From NCBI RefSeq assembly GCF_000230735.2, contig NC_019962.1:1178001-1242000 (forward strand): a stretch of 64,000 nt of DNA. The letters are read 5' to 3'. The stretch is from Natrinema pellirubrum DSM 15624. GTDB taxonomy: Archaea > Halobacteriota > Halobacteria > Halobacteriales > Natrialbaceae. Below, piece after piece: positions 48,832 to 53,372 of this stretch; the first letter of the stretch is position 1, and each line of letters opens with the position of its first letter. A program made the position numbers and the translations under genes. The notes under the pieces are model-generated. The model had not been told where the DNA came from and did not search any database. It saw only the letters and a program-made list of their open reading frames with translations.

Positions 48832-49309
48832 TCGCTGTAATGACACAGCGTCCCGACGGGTTGCTTCGCGGCCTGCGGTCGCTGGGGGGTTAATACGTTT
48901 CCGACGGCGTTCGCCCTCGAGTGAGCGTCCACCCGCGGCGACGGTCACGTCGGGAAACTGGTGCGGTCGGCGATGGGGTCGAGTCGTCGGACTCGGAAAA
49001 CGACTGGCGGTGGCGTGTGCTGTCGGCCGGACGAGTGCCAACGAGGACGGCCGACGACACCGCGCGAGGGATGAGCGAGCGGTGCGAGGCCGACCGGAGG
49101 GAGGTCTCGAGAGCGAACGGTGACCAACGGGAGCCGTGAGCAGCGAGCGAATCGGCTGGGGAGGGCGTGGCCACTCCGTGTTGCCACGATAGCAGGACGG
49201 TCGATATCGCTGAGCCGATGTTCACGACAGGAGCCGCTGTTCACGACGGGAGCCGCCTTCACACCCGACTAACCAAACGTTGATTCACCGCTCGAGCGAA
49301 CACCCGTTC
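48832..49309. other. 478-bp gap between otsA and the M24 peptidase gene
   Basis: It contains a TATA-like CGTATTAAC (minus strand, about 48887-48895) upstream of otsA, and near the right end a perfect-but-one 19-bp tandem repeat (49219-49256). No frame here looks coding. Confidence 0.4.
49219..49256. repeat. two tandem 19-bp repeats
   Basis: TGTTCACGACAGGAGCCGC (49219-49237) is followed directly by TGTTCACGACGGGAGCCGC (49238-49256), one mismatch. The pair lies 54-91 bp before the start at 49310. Confidence 0.6.
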
Positions 49310-50581: not shown

Positions 50582-51787
50582 TTACGGCTCGTCGGTTTCG
50601 ACGAGGACGGTCCGGACGACCTCCGGGTCCTCGAGCAACTGATGCTCAGTATAGCTGCCCTCCGCGCTCCCACCGCTGCGACGGGTCTGCTCGAGGATGT
50701 CGAGGAAGGCGTGTTCCTTCAGGAGATCGCGGACGCGGCGTAGGGAGAGTGGATCGGACCCCTCCTGCCGGCAGATCTCCTCGTAGACGTCGTAGATCCG
50801 CGTCGTTCGGAACCCGTCCTCGTCGGGCGTATTGAGCGAAAGGACTGCGAGGGCCTGTAATACGTAGCGCGAGTGGGGCGTCGAGCCGCGGATGAGTTCC
50901 CGGAACCGGTCGGTTTCGGCCCGCTCGCGCGCCTGAACGACGTACTCCTCGCGAACCGTCTCGTGGCCCTCCGATTGGGCGATCTCCCCGGCGTAGCGCA
51001 GGATGTCGATCGCCTTCCGCGCGTCGCCGTGTTCCCGGGCCGCGAGTGCGGCAGCCCGCGGGATGACCGACGGCTCGAGGACGCCGTCCTTGAACGCGTC
51101 GCTGCGGGCCTCCATGATGTCCCGGAGCTGGGTCGCGTCGTAGGGCGGGAAAACGAACTCCCGTTCACAGAGGCTGGACTTGACCCGCTCGTCGAGCCGG
51201 TCTTTGTACTTGATCTTGTTGCTGATTCCGATGACCCCGATCTTGCACGACTCGAGCTTGCCGGCCTCGCCCGCGCGCGAGAGTTGCATGAGGATGTCGT
51301 CGTCGTCGAGTTTGTCCACTTCGTCGAGAATGACCAAGGCGACGTCGTACTGGGCGTCCAGCACCGTCCAGAGGCGCTTGTAGTAGGTCGACGTACTCAG
51401 TCCCTTGTCCGGAATCCTGACGTCGGTGACCGCCGGCTCGTTCAACGTGTGTGCGATCGTCTGGACCGCCTGCGTCTCCGTGTTGTCCTGTGCGCAGTCA
51501 ACGTAGGCGAAGGCCGACGTGATCCCCTCGTCTTCGGCGACCCGGACGAGCCGTTCGGAGATGTACTTCGCACAGAGGGACTTGCCCGTCCCGGTCTTCC
51601 CGTAAATGAGGAGGTTGCTCGGGCTCTGGCCGAAGATCGCCGGATTGACCGCGTTCGCGAGTTCGGCGATCTCGTCGTCCCGGCCGACGATCCGCCCCTC
51701 CTCGGGCAGGTGGTTGATCTCGAGTAGCTCCTTGTTCTCGAAGATCGGGTCGTCGCGGGTGAACAGGTCGTCGCCGGAACTCGACAT
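50582..51787 (-). CDS. orc1: Orc1/Cdc6 replication initiator
   Basis: This 401-residue AAA+ origin-binding protein has Walker A in LLIYGKTGTGKSLCAKYI, Walker B VALVILDEVDKL, sensor I IGVIGISNK and a C-terminal winged helix (about 300-400) that binds ORBs. The sequence MSSSGDDLFTRDDPIFENKE is the normal start. ORB repeats lie immediately upstream (51794) and downstream (50526), and the origin is on its 5' side. Such orc1-linked origins are the standard arrangement in haloarchaea. Confidence 0.95.
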   Translation of the reverse strand: MSSSGDDLFTRDDPIFENKELLEINHLPEEGRIVGRDDEIAELANAVNPAIFGQSPSNLLIYGKTGTGKSLCAKYISERLVRVAEDEGITSAFAYVDCAQDNTETQAVQTIAHTLNEPAVTDVRIPDKGLSTSTYYKRLWTVLDAQYDVALVILDEVDKLDDDDILMQLSRAGEAGKLESCKIGVIGISNKIKYKDRLDERVKSSLCEREFVFPPYDATQLRDIMEARSDAFKDGVLEPSVIPRAAALAAREHGDARKAIDILRYAGEIAQSEGHETVREEYVVQARERAETDRFRELIRGSTPHSRYVLQALAVLSLNTPDEDGFRTTRIYDVYEEICRQEGSDPLSLRRVRDLLKEHAFLDILEQTRRSGGSAEGSYTEHQLLEDPEVVRTVLVETDEP

Positions 51788-51793
51788 AGTCGG

Positions 51794-51813
51794 ACACCGT
51801 GTTTCCGGTGAAA
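51794..51813 (-). repeat. ORB element
   Basis: ACACCGTGTTTCCGGTGAAA, an exact reverse-complement copy of the consensus, 7 bp upstream of the orc1 ATG; it may also autoregulate orc1. Confidence 0.85.
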
Positions 51814-51979
51814 TAGCACTTCCGTTCCGCCCCGGCGGGTTGGGGATCGATCGCACAGAGTGTGTTCGGCACCGAGCGGGCGGTTACGGACCGAACTGAC
51901 GATCAGATCGGGACGTCCTCGCCAAGTGACTCGAGACCGGACCCTCGGTTGCGATCGGTGATCGGTCGTGGACACACAC

Positions 51980-51999
51980 ACACCGTGTTTCCAGTGAAA
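51980..51999 (-). repeat. ORB element
   Basis: ACACCGTGTTTCCAGTGAAA, one mismatch to the reverse consensus. It faces the forward copy at 52043, with 43 bp between them. Confidence 0.8.
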
Positions 52000-52042
52000 C
52001 GGGGCAACTGGGGGGTTGGTGTGGAGTCGAAGTCGGGGTACG

Positions 52043-52062
52043 TTTCACCGGAAACACGGTGT
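52043..52062 (+). repeat. ORB element
   Basis: TTTCACCGGAAACACGGTGT, exact consensus, forward; left boundary of the AT-rich zone. Confidence 0.85.
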
Positions 52063-52184
52063 GGGGGCGGCTCGAAATACGGTCGTTCCGGACGTACGCA
52101 CCCGCTCGAGCCGGGTGGAACGAGCGGTTCAACCCTCGGAAACGCCGCTGGCGCGATCCACCGATTCGACTGCATCCATTCTCG

Positions 52185-52400
52185 ATCTCTCTCGAGAATA
52201 CTTTCGATTCACTCAATGGGCTATACTCATATCTATTACTTATATGTGGCCATAATCACGACAGAATATCAATCACCACTCACGAGGGCAGTCAACTGTC
52301 AAGGGATATCAAGGGCTGTCAATTGGCCTCGAGATATTCTCCGCTTTCTACCCAGCCTCTACCCAGTCTCTATTCAGTCTCTACTCAGATTCTATCCAGA
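52185..52400. other. AT-rich candidate duplex-unwinding element
   Basis: This is the most AT-rich stretch in this part of the window (for example CTCATATCTATTACTTATAT around 52224-52243), followed by TCAA-based repeats (52291-52327, spacing about 10 bp) and the 11-bp tandem array. Its location between ORBs is what archaeal origins show for the unwinding element. Confidence 0.6.
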
Positions 52401-52401
52401 A
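52347..52401 (+). repeat. five tandem 11-bp repeats in the origin
   Basis: Units are TCTACCCAGCC, TCTACCCAGTC, TCTATTCAGTC, TCTACTCAGAT and TCTATCCAGAA; the shared core is TCTAnnCAG. The 11-bp period is close to one helical turn, so the cores would lie on one face of the DNA. Confidence 0.75.
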
Positions 52402-52500
52402 GTCTCCCTTAGGCACGGAGTCGGTCGATTACCCTCCATGGAGACTACGGTGGCTTTGCGGGTTCACCGGATCGGTATCAGTCGATGAGTCTCGGACTGC

Positions 52501-52520
52501 TTCACCGGAAACACGGTGTG
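52501..52520 (+). repeat. ORB element
   Basis: CTTCACCGGAAACACGGTGT (counted from 52500), forward, one mismatch; right boundary of the AT-rich zone. Confidence 0.8.
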
Positions 52521-52558
52521 TCTCACCACTCCGCTCTCGAGCGGCGGCCGCCACCCCG

Positions 52559-52578
52559 TTTCACCGGAAACACGGTGT
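52559..52578 (+). repeat. ORB element
   Basis: TTTCACCGGAAACACGGTGT, exact consensus, forward, about 58 bp after the previous one. Confidence 0.85.
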
Positions 52579-52763
52579 GACCGCGCGACCGGTCGAACTG
52601 CCGGGGCTCATCGAGCGGCCCTCATCGAGCGATGAGTGATCGAACTCGAGCGGGAACCAGCCGAACCCCTCGAGTCGGTAGTTCTCACGTCACCGAATCG
52701 GTGATAGAACAGTACCGTTAGAACAGCACCGCCGCAGAACGAGGATTCGGGAACGTTCCGCTG

Positions 52764-52783
52764 ATTCACCGGAAACCCGGTGT
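52764..52783 (+). repeat. ORB element
   Basis: ATTCACCGGAAACCCGGTGT, two mismatches, forward. Confidence 0.7.
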
Positions 52784-52921
52784 TCGAACCCGTGGTTACT
52801 GCCGATTCGGCCCCACGGCTGTCGTCGGTCCGACTCACTATGAATCAGAACGAGTCGCGGCCGTATCGGTGCCGAACCGAGTCGTCTCTTGCACTGATTC
52901 TCTCCTCCATCTCAGTCCTGT

Positions 52922-52981
52922 CCACCGGCAACTCGGACCTGCTCACCGGAAATTCGGTCCTATTCACCGGAAATCTGGTGT
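52922..52981 (+). repeat. three tandem degenerate ORB-like units (20-21 bp)
   Basis: CACCGGCAACTCGG, CACCGGAAATTCGG and CACCGGAAATCTGG occur at about 21-bp spacing. The third (ATTCACCGGAAATCTGGTGT, 52962-52981) is closest to the consensus. Confidence 0.6.
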
Positions 52982-53026
52982 GTTTCCACATGGTCATGTC
53001 GAGCCAGTACCAGCGTCCCTCTCGAA

Positions 53027-53046
53027 TTTTACCGGAAACCCGGTGT
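53027..53046 (+). repeat. ORB element
   Basis: TTTTACCGGAAACCCGGTGT, two mismatches, forward; the rightmost good copy. Confidence 0.7.
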
Positions 53047-53195
53047 GTGACACGTCCGCTCGAGCCAGTAGTCGGCCCCTCGAGTCCGGACCAGTGGCAC
53101 ACGACTGCAGCCCTCTCGCTCGTCGTCACGATCACGGATGTTCAGGTTCCGATCCGACGGCGACCAGTTCGGTCGACCGATTCCGTACGCCCCGT

Positions 53196-53372
53196 TCAAT
53201 AGTAGTAGAGTTCGAGTTCGTGACCGCAGTTCCGACACCGGGTTTCCTTCCCCAGGAGCCGATTCGAATCGCTCTCCGCGTGGATTCCCGGCCCCGGCGG
53301 CACGGACGCGACAACCGTCGCGTCGCACGCTGGGCAGCCGATATCCATATCCGAATTGGTTGACAGAGACAT
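53196..53372 (-). CDS. small zinc-ribbon protein (58 aa)
   Basis: The frame MSLSTNSDMDIGCPACDATV continues to RLLGKETRCRNCGHELELYY and stop. Two CxxC knuckles (CPAC and CRNC) 34 residues apart form a zinc ribbon; the spacer holds a Pro-Gly loop (SVPPGPG). Small haloarchaeal proteins of this type are of unknown function; some bind DNA or RNA. A degenerate ORB (53235) lies within its coding sequence. It is convergent with the origin region. Confidence 0.75.
   Translation of the reverse strand: MSLSTNSDMDIGCPACDATVVASVPPGPGIHAESDSNRLLGKETRCRNCGHELELYYY

Follow-up and report, generated by a model that had tools for sequence, protein, structure and literature searches.

The 11-bp repeat array of a predicted Natrinema pellirubrum replication origin is probably a lineage-limited duplication next to a conserved core element

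A predicted Orc1/ORB replication origin of N. pellirubrum contains five consecutive 11-bp repeats that probably represent a lineage-limited tandem duplication, drifting in a long spacer between a conserved origin core and the right-hand ORB cluster. Comparison of related genomes revealed that the array is eroded or absent, that the core is conserved, and that the distance between the core and the right ORB is quantized. All coordinates below refer to the window, which is the entire 64,000-nucleotide stretch of genomic DNA that we analyzed.

Results

Upstream of an orc1/cdc6 initiator gene (P0001, positions 50582–51787, minus strand) is a 1.4-kb intergenic region that contains the array. The predicted 401-residue product, a class 1 Orc1, contains the Pfam domains Cdc6_lid (2.7e-22) and Cdc6_C (4.4e-19). 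Orthologs with 77–100% identity were present in about 75 of the 125 genomes of the family, and a GTDB scan extended the ortholog set to other families. The Natrinema gene is carried on large, mostly chromosome-sized contigs; orthologs in Haloterrigena, Natronorubrum and others are plasmid-borne (~160–245 kb; L024–L042 and named plasmids). Several inverted ORBs with the consensus TTTCACCGGAAACACGGTGT, found in both orientations around the array, flank an AT-rich region. On the left side, a minus-strand ORB, ACACCGTGTTTCCGGTGAAA, overlaps the stretch just upstream of the orc1 start (51794–51813), a second minus-strand ORB is at 51980–51999, and a third, at 52043–52062, is in the plus orientation. 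On the right side, the following elements are on the plus strand. A degenerate ORB-like sequence identified by direct reading, GTTCACCGGATCGGTAT (52462–52481), is retained in the sister species and is followed by the first clear right ORB (52500–52519), which is 287 bp from the core, and by further ORBs at 52559–52578 and 52764–52783. Three ORB-like units at exact 21-bp steps, or two helical turns, occupy 52915–52981 (TRF period 21, score 78), and a distal ORB lies at 53027–53046. Judged from these sequence features, the site is a predicted Orc1/ORB origin adjoining a core of the unwinding type.

The array itself occupies positions 52347–52401 of the plus strand. Its units, in order TCTACCCAGCC, TCTACCCAGTC, TCTATTCAGTC, TCTACTCAGAT and TCTATCCAGAA, follow the pattern TCTAnnCAGnn and are all in register, with TCTAnnCAG present in five of five. 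TRF called the array with a period of 11 and a score of 57. The lag-11 self-match score of 23 was not reached in any of 3,000 Markov shuffles (250-bp spacer, lags 5–30), which gave a maximum of 16.5, and the next-best lag-11 score anywhere else in the window was 9.5. In a whole-genome search, the sole mismatch-free occurrence of the two-unit pattern was the array site. These results bear out the five TCTAnnCAG units described in a sequence-only reading of this DNA. The TCAA-based repeats that it reported upstream of the array were also found by direct reading and TRF (52292–52322, plus strand), with starts at 52292, 52299, 52309 and 52319 and steps of 7, 10 and 10 bp; the sister genome has lost part of them. 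The same reading had placed the array in the candidate unwinding region, next to the AT-rich zone of the origin; the array in fact lies outside that zone. The A+T content of the array is 55%, the array begins 134 bp rightward of the conserved AT-rich core (core coordinates +134 to +188), and the minimum of duplex stability in 50-bp windows is centered at 52220–52245, approximately 130–150 bp to the left. On its other side, the array is separated by ~60 bp from the degenerate ORB-like sequence and by ~100 bp from the first clear right-hand ORB.

The sequence-only reading had itself named absence from related origins as grounds for its refutation, and for the 11-mers such absence was the outcome. 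TCTAnnCAG arrays were absent from the other fetched upstream regions and origins of P0001's Orc1 class. In the closest sister, N. thermotolerans, whose Orc1 is 99.75% identical, the array consists of four eroded, out-of-phase units, one of which is 12 bp long and none of which retains the full motif. No other segment of the origin has diverged as far in this comparison, the array having 58% identity against ~93% (90–100% for most neighboring segments), and the lengths of the two spacers differ by 16 bp, or ~1.5 turns. The homolog search and the sister alignment thus ruled out the array as a conserved 11-mer. On this comparative evidence the array is limited to N. pellirubrum and, in eroded form, its sister species, and it is a fast-changing tandem duplication. 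The array may have a species-specific function.

These findings also bear on whether the 11-mers serve as sites at which Orc1 or MCM binds single strands, making the array an archaeal analog of the bacterial DnaA-trio; we consider this very unlikely. The perfect 11-bp register in N. pellirubrum would suit such sites, as would the pyrimidine-rich plus strand of the array, a property of the entire right flank, and the reported binding of T-rich single-stranded DNA by Aeropyrum Orc1 (PMC8287685). However, the motif is gone in the sister and was not found elsewhere, and the array neither adjoins an ORB nor occupies the least stable DNA. Moreover, DnaA-trios are 3-mers beside DnaA boxes that lose function when their register is shifted (PMC6669920).

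The surroundings of the array suggest how a duplication of this kind could arise. Tandem repeats were counted at p ≤ 0.01 in the class 1 loci. They were present in 17–18% of the intervals on either side and of the core-to-ORB spacers alike (left, 20 of 112; spacer, 18 of 108; right, 44 of 240), compared with 22 of 242 intervals in the other intergenic DNA of the same loci, which served as the control. The corresponding densities were ~0.9–1.2 per kb in the origins and 0.32 per kb in the control, a 3- to 4-fold difference, and the sequences and periods of the repeats varied among origin intervals. Because repeat density was alike in the left, spacer and right intervals and higher than in other intergenic DNA, we conclude that the origins of this class are repeat-prone as a whole. 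The near-equal density in the three intervals also led us to reject the idea that such repeats mark the unwinding spacer in particular. A 19-bp tandem repeat was also seen in another intergenic region of the window (49212–49256; TRF score 76). Periods of 11 or 22 bp were mildly in excess in the spacers (7 of 18 repeats versus 7 of 64 in the left and right intervals combined), a bias that selection for steps of a helical turn could explain and that counts against pure drift.

The element of this origin that is conserved is the core. In the window the full core spans 52179–52249 and comprises inverted half-sites, a third half-site, TYACTCAATGGAC and an AT-rich tract. The half-sites, TTCTCGA(6 nt)TCGAGAA and TTCGA, were identified by direct reading at 52179–52207 (plus strand), and class 2 origins have the same layout. 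The remainder, TTCACTCAATGGGCTATACTC and the AT-rich tract (52208–52249, plus strand), is a candidate unwinding or ucm-like element by virtue of its motif, its match to a class 2 model and its low duplex stability; the lowest stability and the conserved core coincide at ~52205–52250. Position-weight analysis gave a class 1 consensus consisting of a short dyad, the third half-site, TYACTCAATGGACnnTnnC and an AT-rich, TATA-like tract. The core was found in approximately 100 class 1 loci, nearly all of the family, with positions anchored by a regular expression that takes in the Haloferax variants. The flank to the left of the core is more purine-rich than the right flank in 101 of 102 class 1 loci with ORBs masked, and a switch from a purine-rich to a pyrimidine-rich strand at the core is seen in the window (51800–53200) and in 101 other class 1 loci.

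The core is not confined to one initiator. The same genomes encode a second Orc1 class that is ~57% identical and has an ORB, TGCCGCTGTATA, unrelated to that of class 1, and 54 of 70 class 2 loci carry the core in variant form. A model built from class 2 cores only (R1) had two matches in the 4.35-Mb genome, the genome's own class 2 origin and the core of the window (52193–52249, E=1.5e-5 within the window). Around the orc gene of the canonical oriC1, at the start of contig C1, R1 found nothing at E ≤ 1. Across 394 genomes of the order, 54 were matched at E ≤ 1e-4, and all eight of the out-of-family matches that were fetched adjoin a P0001 ortholog. These sequence comparisons indicate that the core is common to two Orc1 classes whose ORBs are unrelated. 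A third Orc1 class (L254–L256) has a different dyad, GTTGTGAC...GTCACAAC, followed at a similar distance by a TTATTTATA tract, which is possibly a further variant of the core.

We also found that the distance from the core to the first right ORB is periodic. In class 2 (L075–L089, L202–L250) the distances are mostly 130–132, 139–144, 151–153, 163, 172–174, 202, 222, 234, 244 and 257 bp, near to steps of a helical turn. With values collapsed by genus, these lengths have a period of 10.4 bp (R=0.74, n=28), and the periodicity persists when each distinct length is used once (R=0.68, n=14; p=0.04 across periods 7–16 and p=0.008 for the 9.9–10.9 band). The null for the spacing tests jittered lengths by up to 8 bp, and phylogeny was handled by collapsing only. 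Within-genus length changes in class 2 cluster on multiples of ~10.5 bp (n=14, p=0.0006). Thus, the core-to-right-ORB spacing is quantized at 10.4–10.5 bp in class 2. Class 1 lengths, with each length counted once per genus, had a weaker periodicity when the first right ORB was less than 160 bp from the core (R=0.50, n=40, p=0.001), and spacers longer than 160 bp had none (p=0.43). The phasing in class 1 is considered weaker than in class 2 because differences within genera did not group clearly at 10.5 bp (mean cosine at most 0.09). Since several distances had been examined before the periodic one was found, class 2 serves as a replication. The class 2 distances from the core to the left ORB and to the start codon were not periodic. 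Phasing at 10–11 bp was also rejected for left ORBs in either class and for successive right ORBs in class 1. Our search of mostly openly accessible literature turned up no earlier account of the haloarchaeal core or of the rule for its spacing.

Quantized spacing raises the possibility that the array is a phase-preserving spacer, in which units of 11 bp, or about one turn, are kept since whole-turn insertions do not rotate the right ORB away from its proper face. The helical quantization in class 2 and in short class 1 spacers, together with the excess of 11- and 22-bp periods in spacers, is consistent with this idea. However, the 287-bp spacer of the window is beyond the phased range, spacers above 160 bp are without phasing, the sister spacer differs by 16 bp, and five units of 11 bp add 55 bp, which is 5.24 turns. 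We therefore view this explanation as unlikely.

A second type of periodicity was observed in the class 1 spacers, in which A/T content is modulated every ~11 bp in register with the core from +38 to ~+110 (81–91 origins; separately seen in other families). The array could then form the distal end of a bending or wrapping signal that is anchored on the core and recognized by a nucleoid protein or supercoiling, an explanation that we consider very unlikely. Besides the modulation itself, the coincidence of TCAA units at +86, +96 and +106 with modulation peaks would favor it. However, in long-spacer loci the modulation has disappeared by +100 to +170 (p=0.71), and class 2 has no robust 11-bp signal (best T 9.25 bp; p=0.03–0.31 for 10–11.75). 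The array was rejected as part of the modulation on the grounds that the signal fades before +134 and that the array is off register at T=11. From these data we conclude that the sequence-only reading, in attaching importance to helical phasing next to the unwinding element, was right about the architecture of these origins, both in the core-to-ORB distance of shorter-spacer relatives and of class 2 and in the class 1 A/T modulation, but not about the 11-mer repeat.

Discussion

The duplication that we favor as the origin of the array would arise and decay locally, like short tandem repeats across these origins, and would contain no site for a sequence- or phase-specific ligand. In our model, Orc1 would bind the inverted ORBs on both sides of the core and DNA opening would begin at the AT-rich core, whose motif may be read by a further factor or by Orc1 itself. 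When the right ORB is within ~160 bp (class 1), or in class 2, selection would keep the helical face on which it lies fixed with respect to the core. Such positioning would follow from a need for Orc1 bound there to contact the core complex, which it might do directly or via a short loop. The 287-bp spacer of N. pellirubrum has no detectable phase constraint, and it would therefore be free to accumulate repeats. There is perhaps an even chance that an initiator-independent core, a counterpart of ucm read by a separate factor, is common to the secondary and megaplasmid origins of haloarchaea, with the proximal right ORB required on a fixed helical face, as an archaeal version of the phasing of DnaA box and unwinding site in B. 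subtilis. The array would then be a by-product of repeat turnover in the spacer. This proposal touches on how ORB-bound archaeal Orc1 opens DNA ~100 bp away. A shared core with an ORB in register predicts that half-turn insertions would inactivate the origin and that full-turn insertions would be tolerated, and the occurrence of one core with different initiators points to a core-binding factor. A caution also follows, in that a striking repeat in a single origin can be drift.

The overall layout resembles that of haloarchaeal origins adjacent to orc1/cdc6 (Wu et al. 2012, PMC3528665; Haloarcula hispanica, PMC3936714), which likewise have an orc1 gene, inverted ORBs flanking an AT-rich region and several origin classes with different ORBs per genome. 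The array shares with the DnaA-trio and basal unwinding system of bacteria (PMC6669920) a repeated short motif near an origin. The likeness fails on anatomy, as the array neither abuts an ORB nor lies in the AT-rich core; in contrast to a trinucleotide-scale repeat beside an initiator box, it consists of 11-mers ~100 bp from a clear ORB, and it is not conserved in related origins. In B. subtilis the DnaA box is helically phased relative to the unwinding site (PMC6669920), whereas the haloarchaeal phasing concerns the distance between ORB and core. The remark in the sequence-only reading that no archaeal counterpart had been described is outdated, as Orc1 of Aeropyrum pernix binds T-rich single-stranded DNA of its own AT-rich region (PMC8287685); this archaeal initiator has a T-rich preference and no repeat code. 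A parallel to the core is the crenarchaeal ucm, which one report (PMC12141716) describes as an essential, UBP-bound motif in the AT-rich region of Sulfolobus origins with different initiators. It is the core at 52179–52249, not the array, that is a short motif in an AT-rich region common to origins with different initiators. By analogy with ucm as described there, the core is a candidate ucm-like element in both its position and its sharing across initiators.
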